Source: Oscillospiraceae bacterium (GTDB taxonomy: Bacteria > Bacillota > Clostridia > Oscillospirales > Ruminococcaceae). Taken from it: a stretch of 33,291 nucleotides of DNA. The translations under genes were made by a program, and so were the position numbers. The DNA lies in the NCBI GenBank assembly GCA_016281125.1, contig JAEEIA010000090.1, positions 1-33,291 of the forward strand. Reading direction: 5' to 3'. The number at the start of each line of letters is the position of its first letter. Within the stretch, counting starts at the first letter, position 1. Positions 2,181-27,313 of this stretch are shown here, one piece after another. Below the pieces are notes generated by a model. The model saw only the letters and a list, made by a program, of their open reading frames with translations. It made no database searches and was not told the DNA's origin.

Positions 2181-3659
2181 TCATTTCATCAGAACAATCT
2201 GCATGGTAAACACATGCTCTGCGCAGGACAGCTTCATCATTCCGCCGTATTTTTCAACCGTTCTGCGAATGTTGCCGATGCCGTATCCGTGCAGGGACTT
2301 GTCCTGCTTGCCGGTGATGTGATTTCCGCCGAGCATAAGCGCATCACAGTCCACATCCGCCGGACAGCTGTTGACCGCTTCAATCAGGCGGTGATGCTCC
2401 GATTTTTTGAACGCCAGCCGGATATAACCGTTTTCCGTCTGCGCAGCTGCTTCAATCGCATTGTCCAGCAGATTTGCGAACACCGTGCAGATATCCATCG
2501 GCTTCCAGTTCAGGCCGCCGTCAATCACGCCGTCGATACTGAATGTGATGCCGAGATCGGCCATTTTCGCCAGCTTCGACGAAATCAGCGCATCGACCAT
2601 GTCGTCCCCGCTGACAATCTTCGGGGAAAGCGCATTGACCTCCGTGCGCATATCATTCAGATACTGTCTGGCCTCCTCGATCTTCCCCTCCTCCATGAGC
2701 ATGGCAACCGCCGTCAGATTATTCTGCACATCATGGCGGAATGCGCGGGTATCCTCCTGCGCAGCCTTATACTGGCGGGATGCATTCAGCTCCGTTTCCA
2801 GAAAATTCTGCTGATAGGCTGCCTGCTCCTTATAGGCAGCACTGAGGCGGTTCCGCACAATCAGCAGCGGAATCAGCAAAATCAGCAGCATCATGAAGAG
2901 CACCAGAATGATCCGCATGGAAAGACTGCCGCCTGCCAGCGGGATCCCCTGCTTTTCCACCGTTTCAAACAGAATATTGATCAGCAGCGCGATCGCGGCG
3001 TAAAACAGAACCGATACAATATCAACTTTCCGCAGCCGGAGCGCAACCCCCTTTTTGTATACGCGGTGATACAAAAGCAGCGTGATGATAATGCCCAGCA
3101 CCATGCGAATAATATCCGACTGCATCAGCTCCTCCATGGATGCTTCCGCAATATGCTTGCCGGAAACACCCGTTTCCGTGACGCAGTAACGGATCATCTC
3201 CGGCGGCAGACTGCACACAAAATTGATCAGCATACATACACCGAACGCGATCAGAAAACGCAGCAGTCCTTTTCGGATTCCGATGCCTTTTCCCGCCGCG
3301 ACCACTGCGGCAATCCAGAGAAAAATCGGCAGACTTCCGACCAGGTAGAGCATGTCGCCTAAATCCGTATTCAGGAAAAAATCATTCTTGATACCCAGAG
3401 CCTTCATAATCTGCGCGATGACAAAGCCGATGAAAAACGAGATGATGCTCACAGCAATCATTGTGATCGGAAAACCGACCATCACAAACACCGCCCGTTT
3501 CCGCGAAATCACGATTGAATCATCATAAAAGCAGTGCATGATCAGCAAAGTTGCCAGATACTGAAACAGGATCATGAAAAAATCAATGACCGTCATGACC
3601 AGCATTTCCCATGAAAACGCCATAGAAATATAATCCTGCATGGAAACAAAATCCTGCAT
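2181..3659 (-). CDS. Membrane GHKL sensor histidine kinase (AgrC/LytS-like)
   Basis: 492 aa. Residues about 13-265 form six or more hydrophobic segments, a polytopic membrane sensor. A short helical linker follows, then the dimerisation/phosphoacceptor motif with H309 in FRHDVQNN, as in AgrC-type kinases. The C-terminal ATPase domain has an N box (NLLDNAIEAA) and a G box (GYGIGNIRRTVEKYGG). The start ATG overlaps the regulator stop by one base (TGATG), and GGGAGG lies 8 bases upstream, so the two are translationally coupled. The family phosphorylates a LytTR-type regulator, often in response to a peptide signal. No processing enzyme or obvious peptide precursor is next to it, so the ligand is unknown. 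Confidence 0.92.
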   Translation of the reverse strand: MQDFVSMQDYISMAFSWEMLVMTVIDFFMILFQYLATLLIMHCFYDDSIVISRKRAVFVMVGFPITMIAVSIISFFIGFVIAQIMKALGIKNDFFLNTDLGDMLYLVGSLPIFLWIAAVVAAGKGIGIRKGLLRFLIAFGVCMLINFVCSLPPEMIRYCVTETGVSGKHIAEASMEELMQSDIIRMVLGIIITLLLYHRVYKKGVALRLRKVDIVSVLFYAAIALLINILFETVEKQGIPLAGGSLSMRIILVLFMMLLILLIPLLIVRNRLSAAYKEQAAYQQNFLETELNASRQYKAAQEDTRAFRHDVQNNLTAVAMLMEEGKIEEARQYLNDMRTEVNALSPKIVSGDDMVDALISSKLAKMADLGITFSIDGVIDGGLNWKPMDICTVFANLLDNAIEAAAQTENGYIRLAFKKSEHHRLIEAVNSCPADVDCDALMLGGNHITGKQDKSLHGYGIGNIRRTVEKYGGMMKLSCAEHVFTMQIVLMK

Positions 3660-4360
3660 CAGAACGCCTCCCTTCTGACAAATGAAAACAGCGCCTCCCG
3701 CAGTGCAGATTCCTTGCTGCGGCTGACCGGCAGCTTCGTGCCGTCCTCCATGACCACCTCTCTGCCGGAAATCTGCCGGATCTTGGAAAGTGCAGCAAGA
3801 TAGCAGCGGTGAATGCGGAAAAATCCTTCCGGAGTCAGGCGCTGCTCAAAATCGCTCATGTTGCCGCGCACGGAATAGCTTTCCGCATCCGTATTGATGA
3901 CGACATTCTGATTCTGGGATTCGATAAACAGAATCTCAGTCAGCCGCAGCCGGATCTCCCCTTCCTCATTCTTGATCCAGAGTGTTTTTTCGTTTTCCAT
4001 TTTTTGCAGCACATGGTCAATCACGGCCTGAATCTTCTGCTCATCGGCAGGCTTTGTCAGATACCGCAGGGCATTGACCTCATAGCCTCTGATTGCGTAC
4101 TCGATATGTCCGGTGAGAAAAACGATCTGAACCGTATCACTGATTTCCCGGAGCGTTTCCGCCAGCGTGATACCGTCCATTCCCGGCATTTCGATATCCA
4201 GAAACACCAGATCGTATGCGCGGAGCCGAAACTGCTTCAGCAGCGCCGCGCCGCTTGAAAAGCAGTCCACAAGCATGTCAAGGCTTTTATACAGCCGGTC
4301 GGTGATGCGCCGGAAATCACCGAGAAACTGCTGTTCGTCGTCGCAAATTGCAATTCGCAT
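3659..4360 (-). CDS. LytTR-family response regulator (AgrA/ComE-like)
   Basis: 233 aa. It starts at MRIAICDDEQ (4360) with CGGAGG upstream; ten further in-frame upstream codons lack a ribosome site. Residues 1-120 are a receiver domain with acidic pair DD (residues 7-8), phosphoacceptor D55 in LVFLDIEMPGMDG, and K in the LTKPAD motif near residue 105. Residues about 135-233 are a LytTR DNA-binding domain (RLTEILFIESQNQNV, FFRIHRCYLAALSKI). LytTR proteins bind pairs of short direct repeats about 21 bp apart. Just such repeats lie between this gene and the divergent gene at 4566, which suggests self-regulation plus control of that gene. It forms an operon with the kinase downstream. Confidence 0.93.
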   Translation of the reverse strand: MRIAICDDEQQFLGDFRRITDRLYKSLDMLVDCFSSGAALLKQFRLRAYDLVFLDIEMPGMDGITLAETLREISDTVQIVFLTGHIEYAIRGYEVNALRYLTKPADEQKIQAVIDHVLQKMENEKTLWIKNEEGEIRLRLTEILFIESQNQNVVINTDAESYSVRGNMSDFEQRLTPEGFFRIHRCYLAALSKIRQISGREVVMEDGTKLPVSRSKESALREALFSFVRREAF

Positions 4361-4392
4361 GGAATGTCCTCCGTTTTTTTCTTTGTACAATC

Positions 4393-4421: not shown

Positions 4422-4433
4422 GTGTGCTGTTTG

Positions 4434-4486
4434 CAGCTTACGACAAAATCCGTACCGTTCACGACAATTTTTCCCGTTTCCGGAAA
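4434..4486. promoter_or_regulatory. Direct repeats, probable LytTR operator
   Basis: CAGCTTACGACAA (4434-4446) and CCGTTCACGACAA (4455-4467) are 21 bases apart. A weaker third copy, CCGTTTCCGGAAA (4474-4486, 9 of 13 matches to the second), follows at 19 bases. They sit between the divergent regulator and small-membrane-protein promoters. The spacing of two helical turns matches known LytTR sites such as those of AgrA and ComE. Assignment to the adjacent regulator is inferred. Confidence 0.6.
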
Positions 4487-20283: not shown

Positions 20284-21072
20284 TCATTCCGCCGGGAATT
20301 CAACCGGCCCGTATTTTTCGCGCAGCGCTTCCAGCTTTGCGCGGTTTTCATCCCCGAAAGCGGGCAAAACCGTGTATTCCCATTCATAAAAAACATACCA
20401 TTCGCCGCGGTACCGGATAACAGCAATCAGCGACATCGCATCATCGTCTTCATCGGATTCTTCAGCTGTTTCGGCAAGCTCCGGGGCTTCGATCTGCACA
20501 TCAAATACATATACCAGATCGCTGTTCCGGTAGAAATCCAGATACTGATTGTCTGTCGTGCGCCATTCCTCGGCTTTTTCGGTTTCTCCTTCTTCAAGAT
20601 AGTGGTAGTAGACCATTTCCATTGACGAGCGCTCATAATATTCACCGTACGGAAGAAAATCCGTGTCTTCCGCGCAGGCACTGATCCGATAATTTGTGAC
20701 CTTCACCAGCGCGTCAAGCAGCTCTTGCGTATTCGCTGGTTCATCTATTTCAAGTAGTTTTTCGATCGAGGAATCATGTATTTTTTCGCGGTCGCCCCTG
20801 ACGCAGGCATCAAGACTTTCTTTCAGCGCGGTATACGCAGCCTGTTCTTCGGGCGTGGATGCCTGAAAATCGTCAGAGTGCAGCTTGTGGATGATCAGCA
20901 GCCCGCCGATGCAGATGCAAACGGATGCACAGACCGCAAGGAGCTCCGCTGTCCGGCGGAAACGCAGCTGCGGCATCCGGAATCCGCGTTCTGCACGCGG
21001 CGCAGTGCCGTTGACCGTTTTCTCATCGGCATTGCCGATGGCTTCCAGCAGATCATAGCTTGTGAGTTTCAT
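20284..21072 (-). CDS. Single-TM partner of the second ECF sigma factor
   Basis: 262 aa; the start ATG overlaps the sigma stop by 4 bases (ATGA). The cytoplasmic N-terminus (MKLTSYDLLEAIGNADEKTV) resembles in pattern those of the proteins at 6968 and 27374. One TM helix lies at about 42-62 (LLAVCASVCICIGGLLII). The outer part (about 65-262) has a helical segment and a C-terminal beta part rich in Tyr, Trp and Glu (YRGEWYVFYEWEYTVLP), somewhat like NTF2/DUF4878-type small domains, but I cannot name a family. An acidic stretch (ESDEDDDA) precedes the last strands. Inferred to be an anti-sigma factor or membrane sensor. Confidence 0.8.
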   Translation of the reverse strand: MKLTSYDLLEAIGNADEKTVNGTAPRAERGFRMPQLRFRRTAELLAVCASVCICIGGLLIIHKLHSDDFQASTPEEQAAYTALKESLDACVRGDREKIHDSSIEKLLEIDEPANTQELLDALVKVTNYRISACAEDTDFLPYGEYYERSSMEMVYYHYLEEGETEKAEEWRTTDNQYLDFYRNSDLVYVFDVQIEAPELAETAEESDEDDDAMSLIAVIRYRGEWYVFYEWEYTVLPAFGDENRAKLEALREKYGPVEFPAE

Positions 21073-21626
21073 ATGTACCGCTCCTTTCTCAGGTGATCGT
21101 GCAGTTTCTGGCGCAGCCGGTGCAGCGTGACATTCACGCGGTTTTCGGTGATGCCGAGTCCTGCCGCGATTTCCGGCGCGGTCATCATATAAAAATAGCG
21201 CTGCATGAAGATGGTTTGCTGCATGGCATTCTGTCTGCGCAGGAATGCGCGCACGGCCTCATCCAGCATGGAGGCCTCTGTCTGTGCCGCGACATCCGAC
21301 GCATCTGCAAGCACTTCCGCGAGCTCATCGAGCACCGCTGCGGTTTCCGATTGTCCGCGCTTTGCCGCGTTGTTGTATGCATAGCGATTCAGCGCAATGT
21401 GCCGCACCGCCGCGGAATAATACGCTTTGAGAAAGCGCGGCTTTGCAGGCGGAATGCTGTTCCAGATCCGCAGCAGGGCGTCGTTGAGGCATTCTTCCGC
21501 ATCCTGCGCATTGCCGAGAATGTTTGCCGCGATCTGTCTGCCGAGATTTCCGTATGATGCGGTGATGTCCCGCAGCGCAGACTCGTCACGCGATTCGAGC
21601 TTTTGTATGATCTCAGCGTCCTTCAT
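21069..21626 (-). CDS. ECF-type RNA polymerase sigma factor (second)
   Basis: 185 aa; GGGAGG lies 8-9 bases before the ATG. Region 2 is at about 20-90 (YGNLGRQIAANILGNAQDAEEC, NDALLRIWNSIPP), and region 4 at about 125-180 (MTAPEIAAGLGITENRVNVTLHRLRQKL). It is a paralogue of the sigma factors at 6405 and 29857. It is the first gene of a two-gene operon with the membrane protein at 20284. The region 4 helix-turn-helix differs from the other two, so it probably reads a different promoter set. Confidence 0.92.
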   Translation of the reverse strand: MKDAEIIQKLESRDESALRDITASYGNLGRQIAANILGNAQDAEECLNDALLRIWNSIPPAKPRFLKAYYSAAVRHIALNRYAYNNAAKRGQSETAAVLDELAEVLADASDVAAQTEASMLDEAVRAFLRRQNAMQQTIFMQRYFYMMTAPEIAAGLGITENRVNVTLHRLRQKLHDHLRKERYI

Positions 21627-21682
21627 TCTGACCGCCTCCCTTCACCCTATATGACAGCATCACTGCCGGAAAACTTACAGTC

Positions 21683-21711
21683 ATTATATCATTTTTTTCT
21701 GTTTGTGTAAA
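21683..21711 (-). promoter_or_regulatory. Promoter of the second ECF operon
   Basis: On the minus strand: -35 TTTACA (21706-21711), 17-base spacer, -10 TATAAT (21683-21688) preceded by TGA (extended -10). Confidence 0.82.
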
Positions 21712-21762
21712 GCGAAGAAAAAGTGCCTCCGGCAGGGCAATAACGTGAGCGAGCGCCCATTC

Positions 21763-21786
21763 TGAATGCATCTGAGATAACGCATT
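21763..21786 (-). repeat. Dispersed 3'-end repeat, copy 3 (minus orientation)
   Basis: Read on the minus strand it is AATGCGTTATCTCAGATGCA followed by TTCA, matching the consensus AAGCGGTATCTCCGATG with 4 changes. It lies just past the terminator of the minus-strand 847-aa gene, so it has the same orientation to its upstream gene as the other copies. Confidence 0.5.
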
Positions 21787-21797
21787 CCCAACAGAAA

Positions 21798-21829
21798 CAC
21801 CGGCCTGAATGAAACGGTTCAGGCCGGTG
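21798..21829. terminator. Terminator after the 847-aa dockerin protein gene
   Basis: A 12-bp perfect stem, CACCGGCCTGAA (21798-21809) with TTCAGGCCGGTG (21818-21829), with an 8-base loop. It lies 9 bases beyond the minus-strand stop. The T run is better on plus (CTTTTTC) than on minus (TTTCTGTT). Confidence 0.8.
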
Positions 21830-21837
21830 CTTTTTCA

Positions 21838-24381
21838 TCAGAACGGATTCATGCCGGGTATCTCGGTGCCGCCCCATTCCACAACCGTGAAGCCCGTTCT
21901 TTCAAAGGCTTCCAGCTGCTGCGGTTCGATCTCCACGGCATTCTCAAGCGGGACATATGTCATGAACACACGGAGCAGGCTGTCCGGTTCCGGTGAAATA
22001 TGCAGCTTGGCCGTGTCCGTATAGGCTTCGCCCTGGAACGCAATGAGGTTATACGCATTGTGCTCCATTCTCGGCAGCCAGTATACGATAAACTCATTCA
22101 TCTCCTCCTCGGTCAGCCCCATATATGTGAGCTTATCCTTAAGGAATTTTTCGGTATCGCTGCCTGCAACACAGAATCCTTCGGAAAGATCAAATCTGGT
22201 GCGGCAGTTCACGGCATCCCAGAACAGATATCTGTGATGTGTGCCGTCCGCCTTGTTCAGCAGCGAGCCGTCCGGCGATGCGGTCACATCCCAGCCGTTG
22301 TTGTATTTCGGATAGGTGGTGGAGAGCTCGGATTCTGTCAGCTCCAGCTCCACATGCACATCGGTTTCCTCTTCGGGGTACAGGTAAATGACCGGCTTAT
22401 CGACCGCGAGGCCGTGGAATTTGACATTCGGTTCATCGCTGTTGTCGCAGACTGTCTTGATCCAGCCGGAACCGCCGTCGTATTTCACATAAACCCAATC
22501 ATCATTTCCCTCGTTGTGTCCACGCTCCCAGAACTCCGTGTAGAGCGGGAAGGTTGCGAGGACCGTATAATCGGTGCCCGGGCCTGCATACAGATTCAGA
22601 TTGTCGCCGATCAGCATAAACATGTCATAGAAATCACCCTCAACATCCGGCTTCACGATTTCTGTGTTTTTGAGGATGTAATACCGTTTCATCAGAGCAA
22701 GGTCGGATGCATCGAGCTTTTTGTCACGGTGAAGATCGGCTGCTTCCCAGAGTTTTGTTTTCGCGTTCGGCTTTCCGAGCAGCAGGTTTTCCAGCAGCAC
22801 AATATCCTGATACGTAAATTTGTCATCGCCGTTGAGGTCGCAGTCCGGATGCCATTTCATTTTGCAGGAGATTTCAGTATGTTCCAGATCCCAGCCGACA
22901 GTTTCAAACTGCGCAGACTCGTAATAGCCGGCAGTTGAAGTGATATAGAGAAAATACTCCCAGTTCCGTTCCAAAACTCCGGACTCGGTCGTTGTCCACG
23001 GGTTTGATTCGACCTGGTACTGCATATATTGGTCTCCGATTCTGGGATCGGCAGAATACTGCTGTTTTCCAAGTACAGTCCGGTTATCCGGAAATTCAAT
23101 CAGTTCACCGGTATCCGCATCATAGAATGAAATGACGGTTTCATATTCAATCGACGCAGCATTTTTCAGCTTGAGCACAATATCCGCAGAGCCGTTTTCG
23201 TATCTGGTCACGGAAACAGCGTCTTTTGGCGAGCCGCCCCCGTTATAATAGCCGATTGTGCTGGCAAATCCGGGAATCACATAGCCTTCCGGCAAATGAT
23301 CGTTATCCAGCTCAAAGGTGAAATAATCCGCATCGAAGAACGCGGTGAACTGTTCTCCCAGCACCGTGGGATTCGTGCCCAGTTTATAAACCGGACCGGT
23401 CGTGATTGTGCCGCTCGGCCGCTCGTACCGGACATCCGTCAGGAGCGTCGGCACAGAATCGCCGCTGTACGAAAGCGGCGCGCCGGTGTCATAATCCGCA
23501 AGCGTCACGCGGGACTGTCCGGACAGCAGAACTGCCTTTGCTCCGTCAATCACCATGCAGTCTGCAATGCGTGACTGTACAACATCCTCCGGCCGGTACG
23601 GCGTGCTGCTCTTCGGCACATAATCGTATCTGATTTTGGATCTGCCGTCCTTTTTGGCCTGATACACCAGAATTCTCAGAATCTCCCCACCGTCAAGCGG
23701 TTCAGCCGTCAGCAAAGAACAGTCTGAAGTATAGATGTAATCAATGACGGAATGATCCGTTTCCTCCAGGCCGGTGCCGACCCATTCAAAGGCTGCGCCG
23801 GAATCGGCATTCAGACAGAACATCACATACTGATCCCTTGCGAAAACTTCACTGTCTGCCGTGGGCAGCGCCTCAAATTCGGCCGCGCAGTCCGGCAGCC
23901 AGCTGAACATATCCGTTTCGGTCACTTTCAGATCGCTGTTAATGTCAAATGTATACGTTGTGGTTCCGTGATCCGGCTGTGCGCCCGCCTGAAATGCATC
24001 CGAAAAAGACACTGCAAACGCACCCGCGCTGACCGGCTGATATACATGAACCTCAAAGACGAGCGAACTGTTCTCCGAACCGTAATATTCCGTTTGCAGG
24101 AGCTTCGCGCTGTTTCCTTCCGCATTCACCTCATAGCGCAGCATACCCTGCGGTGCATCCGACGATGCGCGTTCCTCTGCAAATACCGTGCAGATCAGGC
24201 CGTCTGCAATATGCGTTGCGCCGTGGGTGTTGCGGAATTCCAGTGCGGAAGCAAAATCATCCGGCACCCAAGACGGCATTGCAGCAGGAGCAGGCGCGTC
24301 CGCAGCCTCCGCCGCCGGGAACGCTGCCGGGGATGCAAGTAGGATTGCAGTTGTCATACATGCCAGGATTCTGTTTTTCAT
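21838..24381 (-). CDS. Secreted protein with internal dockerin, SH3-like domain and KPVIYLYPE-type C-terminal domain
   Basis: 847 aa; GGAGG lies 7 bases before the ATG. A signal peptide covers residues 1-27 (CMTTAILLASPAAFPAAEA). Residues about 30-505 are beta-rich with no family I can name. A dockerin with two Ca-loop-like segments (CDLNGDDKFTYQDI and DLHRDKKLDASDL) is at about 510-570, internal rather than terminal. An SH3-like domain is at about 585-640 (LNLYAGPGTDYTVL, DDWVYVKYDGGSGWIK). The last 185 residues begin KPVIYLYPEEETDVHVEL and contain FIVYWLPRMEHNAYNLIAFQ and FTVVEWGGTEI, a conserved but uncharacterised domain I have seen in many Firmicutes proteins. Likely a cell-surface or scaffold-bound protein. 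Catalysis is not evident. Confidence 0.85.
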   Translation of the reverse strand: MKNRILACMTTAILLASPAAFPAAEAADAPAPAAMPSWVPDDFASALEFRNTHGATHIADGLICTVFAEERASSDAPQGMLRYEVNAEGNSAKLLQTEYYGSENSSLVFEVHVYQPVSAGAFAVSFSDAFQAGAQPDHGTTTYTFDINSDLKVTETDMFSWLPDCAAEFEALPTADSEVFARDQYVMFCLNADSGAAFEWVGTGLEETDHSVIDYIYTSDCSLLTAEPLDGGEILRILVYQAKKDGRSKIRYDYVPKSSTPYRPEDVVQSRIADCMVIDGAKAVLLSGQSRVTLADYDTGAPLSYSGDSVPTLLTDVRYERPSGTITTGPVYKLGTNPTVLGEQFTAFFDADYFTFELDNDHLPEGYVIPGFASTIGYYNGGGSPKDAVSVTRYENGSADIVLKLKNAASIEYETVISFYDADTGELIEFPDNRTVLGKQQYSADPRIGDQYMQYQVESNPWTTTESGVLERNWEYFLYITSTAGYYESAQFETVGWDLEHTEISCKMKWHPDCDLNGDDKFTYQDIVLLENLLLGKPNAKTKLWEAADLHRDKKLDASDLALMKRYYILKNTEIVKPDVEGDFYDMFMLIGDNLNLYAGPGTDYTVLATFPLYTEFWERGHNEGNDDWVYVKYDGGSGWIKTVCDNSDEPNVKFHGLAVDKPVIYLYPEEETDVHVELELTESELSTTYPKYNNGWDVTASPDGSLLNKADGTHHRYLFWDAVNCRTRFDLSEGFCVAGSDTEKFLKDKLTYMGLTEEEMNEFIVYWLPRMEHNAYNLIAFQGEAYTDTAKLHISPEPDSLLRVFMTYVPLENAVEIEPQQLEAFERTGFTVVEWGGTEIPGMNPF

Positions 24382-24584: not shown

Positions 24585-24586
24585 TG

Positions 24587-24640
24587 CAACTTACCGCCAA
24601 AAAAATACAACTTACCGTTCAGAAACCGCAGCTTACCGGA
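24587..24640. promoter_or_regulatory. Three direct repeats, probable LytTR-type operator
   Basis: CAACTTACCGCCA (24587-24599), CAACTTACCGTTC (24607-24619) and CAGCTTACCGGAA (24628-24640) are 20 and 21 bases apart. The array fills the space between the minus -35 (24579-24584) and the plus -35 (24646-24651). The third copy matches the 4434 repeat CAGCTTACGACAA at 10 of 13 bases. I infer shared control of the divergent genes. Confidence 0.65.
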
Positions 24641-24743: not shown

Positions 24744-25307
24744 ATGTCATTCAGGATCAAGCATGAAACAACATGGATGAAGATTGTATCCACGGCTTCC
24801 TGCCTGCTGTTTTTCGGCGTGATTATGAAGTTCTGCCTGATTACAGAGAGCTTCGGGAAGCCGCCCGCATGGCTGATTGCAGTGTTTGTGCTTCTGTTGA
24901 TTCTGCTTGCTGCGGCTTCTGCACTGTATTTTATTGAGCAGGCCGTCGGAACGCGGATTGCCGTTGACAGCGAAACGATCACGGTCAGATACCTGTTCGG
25001 AAAGCGGCGAATCGCGCCGGACAGCATCCGTGATGTGCAGATGGAACGGTACCAACGTGTACGCAGGAAAAAGCATTCCATCGTCTGCAAAAGCGGCGGT
25101 TATCATTTTCTGGAACACCGGCTGCGGATGACGGTTCACATGCTGAATGAGAGGGATCTCGTGCTGACCGATACGGCGATGACGGAAACGGGCGGGATCT
25201 TCGGATCCCTGTTCAGTACAATGGAACCGCTCCCGGATGAGGTGGTTCCGCTTTATCAGGCATACCGGAGCATTCTTTCCATGCTGAACCGGACGCCTGC
25301 AAATTGA
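24744..25307 (+). CDS. Two-TM membrane protein with PH-like cytoplasmic domain
   Basis: 187 aa; AAGGAG precedes the ATG by about 7 bases. There are two hydrophobic helices, at about 12-33 (KIVSTASCLLFFGVIMKFCL) and 42-66 (WLIAVFVLLLILLAAASALYF). Residues about 70-165 form a soluble domain that begins GTRIAVDSETITVRYLFGKR and reads RIAPDSIRDVQMERYQ, the pattern of bacterial PH-like domains. The family function is unknown. It is monocistronic with its own strong promoter and terminator, and lies next to a repeat array shared with the divergent dockerin gene. Confidence 0.75.
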   Translation: MSFRIKHETTWMKIVSTASCLLFFGVIMKFCLITESFGKPPAWLIAVFVLLLILLAAASALYFIEQAVGTRIAVDSETITVRYLFGKRRIAPDSIRDVQMERYQRVRRKKHSIVCKSGGYHFLEHRLRMTVHMLNERDLVLTDTAMTETGGIFGSLFSTMEPLPDEVVPLYQAYRSILSMLNRTPAN

Positions 25308-25403: not shown

Positions 25404-25413
25404 GGCCGTTCGT

Positions 25414-25528
25414 CCGCGACAAACGGCGGAGGGCGGCATTTCGTCGCAGACCGGCAACTCAGGTGCCGAAAACGGCAATTCGTCGTGATATACGGCAATT
25501 CGTCGTGAAATATGGCATTTTGTCGGAA
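25414..25528. promoter_or_regulatory. Six-copy 20-bp-period repeat array upstream of the second LRR-transglutaminase gene
   Basis: Copies of GGCAATTCGTCGTGA-like sequence begin at 25414, 25435, 25453 (degenerate), 25474, 25494 and 25514; the 25474 and 25494 copies are identical over 15 bases. The period is 18-21 bases, about two helical turns. The last copy ends just before the -35 box at 25533. Reverse complemented, the unit (TCACGACGAATTGCC) resembles the 4455 repeat (TTCACGACAATTTT). Together with the hairpins before it and the leader after it, this accounts for the gene-free stretch 25308-25717. Confidence 0.65.
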
Positions 25529-25532
25529 AATA

Positions 25533-25561
25533 TTGCGCTGAATGTTTCATTGTGTTATAAT
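25533..25561 (+). promoter_or_regulatory. Promoter of the second LRR-transglutaminase gene
   Basis: -35 TTGCGC (25533-25538), 17-base spacer, -10 TATAAT (25556-25561). The weak -35 with upstream repeats suggests activation. Confidence 0.7.
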
Positions 25562-25564
25562 AAG

Positions 25565-25717
25565 ATTGCAGCTGATATGCATGCTCCAGCCGGCGGATCA
25601 GCATATATTCAGCATTACATCATGTATCGTGACTGCAATATCATCAAAGCAATTTTATTCAATTTTTGCGCTGCGTTCCGGCAGCGAAGAATCTGAACTT
25701 TCAAAGGAGGATCACAC
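25565..25717 (+). promoter_or_regulatory. Structured 150-base leader
   Basis: The leader holds several complementary segments: ATTGCAG (25565-25571) with CTGCAAT (25633-25639), GCTGA-TATGC with GCATA-TCAGC inside it, and CGCTGC/GCAGCG near 25670-25687. No known riboswitch signature was recognised. Confidence 0.35.
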
Positions 25718-27313
25718 ATGAAACACCGCAAGCTCATCGCGCTGTTCACGGCTGCCCTGCTGGGCATTTCCGCTGCTGCATTCCCGCCCTTCGATGCAGC
25801 ACCCTCCGCACTGGTTGCGGAGGCCGCAAGCGAACAAACTTTCATCTCCGGAAACTATGAATACAGCTATGTTCCCGGCGCAGGCACCGCAACATTTGTG
25901 CGGTACAACGGCTCCGGCACCAGCCCCAAACCGGCGTCTTATATTCAGACCCCGGACGGCCAGAAGAAGGTCACAAAAATCGGCAGTTATGCATTCCATA
26001 CGGCATCCGAGCATGGGTGGGCCGCAAAGCCGATCACTTCTGTGACGATTCCCTCCACTGTCACGGAAATCTGTGAAGACGCATTCAGATATTGCAGTTC
26101 CCTGAAAACGGTTTCATTTTCTTCCAAGCTGAAAAAGATCAGACCACGTGCTTTTCAGGGAACAAAGCTGACTGAGGTCGTTCTGCCTGAAACGGTTTCA
26201 TTGATCGGCAATTCTGCATTTTTAGATTGTAAATCGCTGAAAACGGCGACAATTCAAAAGAAAGCAACGATCGAAGAATCCGCCTTTCAGGACTGTACGG
26301 CACTGACTGACATCACACTTCCGTCCGACTGCATCCTTGAAAAATACATCTTTTCAGGCTGTACATCACTGAAAAGAATCAACGGCATCACCCCCTGGAC
26401 GACCATCAACGGTGTGCCGGTAATCACCAGCGATCCGTTCATCAAAGAGCTGCTCGGCTCATTCTTCTCCCAATGTGAAGGTGTCGAATTCGTGGACAAA
26501 CTCTGCACCGCAATCTGCGACTATGTTGTGAAGACAGAAACCACCACGAACAGCAGCGAGGACTGGATGGGTGACGCGGTCAAGGCGCGGCAGCTTCATG
26601 ACTGGCTGATCCGGCACTGCATGTATGAGGATGAGGAAAACGGTGAAACACTGGACGATCCGGAAAACAACACCTATTCCGGCGTGTTCCTCAGCTACAT
26701 GCTGAACGTCCGGGGCACGGGCATCGGTGAAACGGTCTGCGAGGGCTATGCCAAAGCCTATGCGATGCTGCTGCGGGCTGCGGGCATCGAATCCTATGTC
26801 GTTGATGCAGACGCAGCAGAAGCAGGCAAGAAAGGCCATGCATGGAACATTGTGAAGATCAGCGGCAAATACTATCAGTGTGACACCTGCTGGGATGCCG
26901 ACAAATACTGGAAGCAGAGCACCCATGAACTTTACGGAACAGTGTATAAACGCTTTCTGAAAAACAACGCTCAGATGCAGAACCTGCACGGCTCCGGATT
27001 CAAAAAGCCCTATATCCGAGTGGTATATGATTCGCACCCGTATCTCACCTATACACGCGCAGCAGCAGAGAATGCGCTCAGCAAATGCAATTATACATTC
27101 GATGACTCCAACATGGACGGCCTTCTGAATATGAACTGGGATTTCGACAACAAAGCCAATTCCTCCGCAGACAAGGCCACATATCTGTCTGTCTGCCATT
27201 CGCTGGGTTACGAATGGGGCGACGTGCCGGCTTCCGGTATGCAATGCTTCCTGTACAATCTGTTCTACGAATTCAAGATGTCCCCGGCGTATTTCCGCAG
27301 TATTTATCCGTAA
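25718..27313 (+). CDS. Secreted LRR-transglutaminase-like protein (second)
   Basis: 531 aa; AAAGGAGG precedes the ATG. A signal peptide covers residues 1-37 (LIALFTAALLGISAAAF, ending near AEAAS). BspA-type LRRs lie at about 85-225 (KIGSYAF, ITSVTIPSTVTEICEDAFRY, LTEVVLPETVSLIGNSAFLD). The transglutaminase-like core is at about 300-400 with C341 (GETVCEGYAKAYAMLLRAAG), H374 (GHAWNIVKI) and D389 (YYQCDTCWD), a complete triad. The C-terminal 130 residues are Tyr-rich and unassigned; there is no dockerin. Likely secreted or surface protein that crosslinks or cleaves protein amide bonds; the LRRs may bind the partner. It has the same plan as the product of 233-1888, but the sequences are far apart. 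Confidence 0.9.
   Translation: MKHRKLIALFTAALLGISAAAFPPFDAAPSALVAEAASEQTFISGNYEYSYVPGAGTATFVRYNGSGTSPKPASYIQTPDGQKKVTKIGSYAFHTASEHGWAAKPITSVTIPSTVTEICEDAFRYCSSLKTVSFSSKLKKIRPRAFQGTKLTEVVLPETVSLIGNSAFLDCKSLKTATIQKKATIEESAFQDCTALTDITLPSDCILEKYIFSGCTSLKRINGITPWTTINGVPVITSDPFIKELLGSFFSQCEGVEFVDKLCTAICDYVVKTETTTNSSEDWMGDAVKARQLHDWLIRHCMYEDEENGETLDDPENNTYSGVFLSYMLNVRGTGIGETVCEGYAKAYAMLLRAAGIESYVVDADAAEAGKKGHAWNIVKISGKYYQCDTCWDADKYWKQSTHELYGTVYKRFLKNNAQMQNLHGSGFKKPYIRVVYDSHPYLTYTRAAAENALSKCNYTFDDSNMDGLLNMNWDFDNKANSSADKATYLSVCHSLGYEWGDVPASGMQCFLYNLFYEFKMSPAYFRSIYP

Follow-up and report, generated by a model that had tools for sequence, protein, structure and literature searches.

A five-unit repeat array before an LRR/transglutaminase gene, and a LacI-sensor LytTR protein as its candidate regulator

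The stretch of DNA analysed here (33,291 nucleotides of contig JAEEIA010000090.1, assembly GCA_016281125.1, from an Oscillospiraceae bacterium; hereafter, the window) carries a row of short repeats that runs up to the promoter of a gene for a BspA-type LRR/transglutaminase-like protein. The question raised by this locus is which protein, if any, reads the repeats, and for the control of which genes.

The array and its promoter

The array comprises five in-register direct units of the GGCAWTTYGTCG type (25435-25525), repeating every 20 bases or so. Counted from the -10, the units start at -121, -103, -82, -62 and -42, with spacings of 18, 21, 20 and 20 bases. Specifically, and all on the + strand, these are unit 1, GGCATTTCGTCG (25435..25446), which stands at an equal spacing in the congeneric genomes G015 and G017; unit 2, the variant GGCAACTCAGGT (25453..25464); units 3 and 4, both GGCAATTCGTCG (25474..25485 and 25494..25505); and unit 5, GGCATTTTGTCG (25514..25525), whose end lies 7 bases short of a weak -35, TTGCGC (25533..25538). 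A 17-base spacer leads from there to a perfect extended -10, TGTTATAAT (25553..25561), and the TTGC of the -35 is kept in orthologous promoters. The initial annotation had described a repeat row of about 20-base period that leads to a promoter with a weak -35 and a perfect -10, which is confirmed, but its count of six units becomes five in register, of which the second is a variant, plus an upstream inverted pair of half-units, TTCGTC-N3-GACAAA (25409..25423, no strand assigned), read directly from the sequence. Downstream, AAAGGAGG lies at 25703-25710, ahead of the LRR/transglutaminase-like gene (25718..27313, + strand), whose 531-aa product has a signal-peptide-like start and matches the Pfam families LRR_5 (1.4e-29) and Transglut_core (2.6e-8).

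In a tandem-repeat scan (TRF), the array tops the 16 repeat rows of the window (score 82; the next, 60), and the window's best three-copy and four-copy periodic matches both fall inside it, at scores that none of 200 dinucleotide shuffles reached. A rigid five-copy test has its best match in the window elsewhere, at 2863 with a period of 18 (2 of 200 shuffles reached this score), and does not single out the array, whose real spacing is uneven. The layout is in keeping with that of a LytTR-type operator. LytTR operators are described, in the accessible part of the source, as 9 bp units with 10-13 bp spacers (PMC11347149), an arrangement that the array shares, its spacing of 18 being one below the canonical 19-22. 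Likewise, the proximal repeat of S. mutans LRS operons lies 4-11 bp upstream of the -35 in the excerpts available (PMC6193735), and unit 5, at 7 bases, falls within that range.

Two further arrays lie in the window. Array 1 (4433-4464) holds two LytTR-like units (GCAGCTTACGA and ACCGTTCACGA) and is divergent from a response-regulator gene (3659-4390). Three close orthologues of that gene (79-91% identity; L038, L039 and L040) keep it at their divergent promoter, its pattern was not seen at a 57% orthologue (L041), and it is, on this comparison, probably the response regulator's own target. Array 2 (24586-24638) holds three GCARCTTACCG-type units with a period of 21, before a TTGACA/TATAAT promoter that belongs to a PH-domain-like gene (24744-25307). 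Units of its type occur near small LytTR protein genes in 4 of the 33 LytTR loci scanned (L001, L123, L126 and L127) and also precede an LRR/transglutaminase homologue in L028; tentatively, array 2 probably marks a separate LytTR regulon. In this part of the window, a gene for an ECF-type sigma factor (21069-21626, minus strand) is found between an unassigned gene and a gene for a large dockerin/SH3 protein (20284-24381, all on the minus strand).

The LytTR consensus is [TA][AC][CA]GTTN[AG][TG]. Set against 118 units of the array family, it does best in a single + strand register, at a mean of 6.56 of 9, and scores 3.1-4.5 in seven other registers tested, which is a partial fit (its degeneracy alone would give about 4.25 by chance, and the first and fourth positions mostly differ). 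The array had been held to be flipped relative to that at 4434, a claim that finds no support: the consensus fits best in one + strand register, and the distance from the start of the last + strand unit to the -10 is 41, 42 and 41 bases in the window's three arrays. On register and distance together, we read the array as running with its promoter strand, not flipped. Against this reading, a weight matrix made from arrays 1 and 2 and their relatives, with the 25435-25525 array excluded, is weak on the array units (2.8-6.0 bits), and its minus-strand hits, of up to 8.4 bits, are non-periodic. Arrays 1 and 2 by themselves cannot classify the 25435-25525 array; comparative data decided.

A family of array promoters

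The array is one of a family of promoters whose units keep fixed distances from the -10 and which mostly precede genes with signal-peptide-like starts. Two congeners (G015 and G017), with LRR genes 39% identical over residues 108-482, carry an equal array, in which the spacings are identical, down to the 18 and 21 bases on either side of the variant unit; the 5' untranslated regions are less alike. Within unit 2, AACTCAGGTGCC is invariant across the three orthologous LRR promoters, and GGCAAYTCAG-like units stand at -103 in several further array promoters. The G015 and G017 promoters are near-identical to each other and count as little over one observation; for the G015 LRR protein, LRR_5 was matched and no transglutaminase family was found at E 0.01.

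A sequence-only profile (R1), built from three sequences and covering three units and the promoter, found nine distinct array promoters in the window's own genome (G000) at E < 1e-7. Among 29 congeners, it gave strong matches in G001, G002, G008, G015 and G017 and a weak one in G020 (8.8e-4), and in the remaining 23 of the 30 genus genomes its best E was 0.0017, the cut-off for calling an array in the genus (1e-3) having been chosen after the data were seen. Weak profile matches (E 0.001-1), which are present in genomes with and without the regulator discussed below, were left out. In the 27 promoters compared, units stand at -42, -62, -82, -103 and -121 in 26, 26, 24, 20 and 18 cases, respectively, the first three positions being built into R1 and the last two, as well as the inverted pair (found upstream in 19 of the 27), lying outside the model. 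These 27 derive from 28 places, minus a weak match on C55 (L082) and the + strand arrays of L086, L091 and L095, which face the regulator gene itself, plus the window array, G015:C65 and G017:C189; the G020 match was also left out. G001:C19 was read from the adjoining half of its array, and G008:C18b was scored as a miss at most unit positions, its -10 having been assigned wrongly.

Behind the array, a signal-peptide-like start is found in 24 of the 27 promoters, versus 28 of 116 control ORFs from the same loci, as judged by a crude hydropathy rule and with controls that may include non-genes. Dockerin proteins, papain-type proteases with dockerins, a CBM2/thermolysin-type protease and LRR proteins are among the products, several of which went unmatched in Pfam; NCBIfam gave no family above its cut-off for the five proteins checked. 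The three array promoters without a clear secreted gene are G000:C76 and G000:C19 (two of the nine in that genome) and G008:C18a, which lies beside the regulator gene. No ORF of 120 residues follows the array of G000:C19. At G000:C76 (L076:3033-3665), the next clear ORF encodes a MoxR-type ATPase about 550 bases downstream, which leaves room for a long leader or a small RNA.

A broader profile (R2), made from 21 promoters and run on nine chosen genomes, extended the family beyond the genus. It found a second array in G330 (of another genus; its coordinates match R. flavefaciens ND2009) at E 2.1e-8, outside the model, with like-kind units before a gene with a signal-peptide-like start. In G009, G016 and G023, which are without the regulator, its best E was 0.0015.

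The sensor-LytTR protein and rival readings

The array family occurs with, and next to, the gene of a sensor-LytTR protein. Within the genus, this candidate regulator is present in six of the seven array genomes and in none of the 23 others (Fisher 1.2e-5, with relatedness ignored), the array match of G020 sitting just upstream of the regulator gene itself. In the seventh, G017 (81% complete), the array is present, a regulator orthologue was not found, and the single LytTR match is a 192-residue frame. In a sample of 396 genomes of the family, which repeats some genus members (including G000, G002 and G008) under stricter filters, arrays (E 1e-5) occur in four genomes and the regulator (E 1e-60) in five, with all four included; the fifth, G346, has a 39% identical relative and no array, R2 giving no match there at 0.01. 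Further, all nine loci at 64% identity or more (L102 and L150-L157, where L150, L151, L152 and L155 are G015, G001, G002 and G008) carry, upstream of the regulator gene, a divergent array, as judged by eye on sequence. L158 (27%) and L159 (33% over 81 residues) were not counted as orthologues, and L174, whose sequence is not set in the direction of the gene and which we take to be the same locus as L153, went uncounted.

G000 encodes six LytTR proteins, G002 two and G008 three. By orthologue searches with LytTR proteins as the candidates, the only kind common to G002 and G008 is the sensor-LytTR protein, the favoured candidate. In G000, it is a 573-residue one-component protein (G000:C61:21877-23595), whose gene is divergent from an array promoter, and which consists of an N-terminal LacI/PurR-type ligand-binding domain, an unassigned middle and a C-terminal LytTR domain (PF04397, 6e-21, residues 475-570). 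The FhRhHRS motif of LytTR domains, as given in the accessible part of PMC4227749, is replaced in the candidate by FIRISRS, with Ser for the motif His. The sensor matches Peripla_BP_3 (1.2e-23) and, from residue 6, Peripla_BP_1, so that the chain begins directly with the binding domain, which also matches solved structures of LacI-family regulators. Searches at E 0.01 gave no match to Response_reg, to the LacI HTH, or to PAS or MHYT; the protein thus joins a sensor and a LytTR domain in one chain with no receiver matched, as expected of a one-component LytTR regulator. A structure prediction from six orthologues was of low confidence (mean pLDDT 45.1, pTM 0.30). Near full-length orthologues of at least 60% identity occur in G000, G001, G002, G008, G015 and G020, and the next-best match in the genus search (33%) stops before the LytTR domain.

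In L150:3480-4001 and the matching stretches of L152 and L155, three like-kind units face the regulator gene's own promoter, besides the divergent array, as would suit autoregulation. In G020, the repeats upstream of the match to the regulator (L107, position 1501), a 60% orthologue, have diverged to GGCATCTTAGTCGC-like units; possibly, regulator and operator are changing together. L158, from an R. flavefaciens MAG (SIG534), is related to the candidate over query residues 6-458 at 27% identity and ends in an AraC-type HTH, with a GGDEF-like stretch below the cut-off. Because this related sensor half bears an AraC-type domain, the LytTR version of the LacI-sensor protein looks like the outcome of a domain exchange.

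We consider it likely that the array is the operator of this LytTR-type, LacI-sensor one-component protein, acting as an activator. It would sense a small ligand in the cell, probably a sugar or similar, load cooperatively from the inverted pair down to the unit beside the -35, and, once bound, help RNA polymerase at a promoter whose extended -10 is good but whose -35 is poor, so that a set of secreted proteins, and probably the regulator's own gene too, would be switched on together. The earlier proposal of a LytTR-type multi-site array with probable cooperative loading fits well, while a regulator shared by the three arrays of the window does not find support. An extracellular signal had also been proposed; because the sensor is of LacI type and no receiver domain was matched, a small ligand sensed inside the cell is the more probable.

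The direction of control is where a rival fares best. That the candidate is the right protein, but a repressor released by its ligand, is unlikely, and there are points on both sides. LacI-type sensors mostly belong to repressors, which counts for that reading. CoxC, a one-component LytTR protein with three repeats, likewise represses, according to the accessible part of PMC11347149, where its repeats lie across the -35. The last array unit, by contrast with the CoxC operator, stays clear of the -35. It is because of this position, together with the weak -35 and the extended -10, a layout like that of LytTR-activated operons in the excerpts available, that we favour activation.

Direct repeats spaced by about 21 bases can serve as sites for AraC-type regulators, and a non-LytTR protein of this or another kind might bind the units, with the sensor-LytTR gene merely a neighbour or a target. 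Adjacency would arise also if that gene were only a target, co-occurrence was computed for LytTR proteins alone among transcription-factor families, and G017 has an array with no regulator found. However, the array co-occurs with the sensor-LytTR gene across two genera, and its units have a LytTR-type register, which makes such a binder quite improbable.

Still less probable, in our judgement, is that the array is the target of the window's own LytTR response regulator (3659-4390), paired with the adjoining kinase gene (2181-3659). This protein, with receiver and LytTR domains, is encoded in the same window and is present in four of the seven array genomes; at its divergent promoter stand two LytTR-like units, the nearer one 41 bases ahead of the -10. 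Yet its own conserved boxes (GCAGYTTACGA/ACCGTTCACGA, period 21) are a different unit, and G009 carries a 57% orthologue without any strong array. The converse is seen in G008 (99% complete), where array promoters are present and the search at E 1e-30 found no orthologue; on this ground we set the response regulator aside as array controller. Finally, there is next to no chance that the array is a functionless product of neutral tandem duplication. Units 3 and 4 are near-identical along 20 bases, as a recent duplication would leave them, but units and spacing are kept across species in spite of a diverging 5' untranslated region, and G000 has nine promoters of like layout.

Known systems and implications

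The sensor of RcoM is of the PAS/haem kind. The CO-responsive CoxC and RcoM, with an MHYT membrane or a PAS/haem sensor, differ in this respect from the candidate, whose sensor is of LacI type. They resemble it in that a sensor is fused to a C-terminal LytTR domain and in that more than two direct repeats stand about two helical turns apart. In the accessible part of the source, their operators have three direct repeats, 18-21 bases apart for CoxC (PMC11347149), compared with five plus an inverted pair here. The initial annotation had called long arrays unusual, as LytTR sites usually have two copies; two is indeed the rule, but the three repeats of CoxC and RcoM are known from the same text (PMC11347149). 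AgrA and the LytTR Regulatory Systems (HdrR, BrsR) also belong to the LytTR family and have direct repeats just upstream of the -35, with spacers mostly of 12 bases and sometimes of 11 or 13, in the excerpts available (PMC6193735; PMC4227749). They differ in that the repeats form a pair, and in that AgrA is a response regulator while the others act together with an inhibitory membrane protein.

LacI/GalR regulators (CcpA, RbsR, PurR) share the ligand-binding domain of the candidate, which, unlike them, has no matched LacI HTH, has a C-terminal LytTR domain and has a direct-repeat array as its putative operator. LacI-sensor proteins of the L158 type are like it in the sensor half and end in an AraC-type domain, not LytTR. 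The proposed assembly recalls Streptomyces BldC, an unrelated, MerR-like protein that forms head-to-tail oligomers on a variable number of direct repeats, as far as the accessible text goes (PMC5859096). Among the matches listed from the open-licence literature, we found no paper that describes a fusion of a LacI-type sensor to LytTR or a LytTR operator with five sites.

An orphan repeat array here becomes a defined regulon with a testable candidate regulator. To our knowledge, little is understood of how rumen Ruminococcus controls its secreted and its dockerin-bearing proteins, and R. flavefaciens ND2009 carries both the candidate regulator and the arrays. As a tentative extension, to which we give somewhat less than an even chance, the protein may represent a new LytTR class with a LacI-type sugar sensor, which would assemble cooperatively and in order over five to seven sites (a symmetric dimer on the inverted pair, then the five direct repeats) and so exert joint, steep control of secreted and dockerin (cellulosome-linked) proteins in rumen Ruminococcus relatives. 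If true, a LacI-type sensor joined to LytTR, with five-site operators, would widen both the known sensors and the known operator layouts of the LytTR family.
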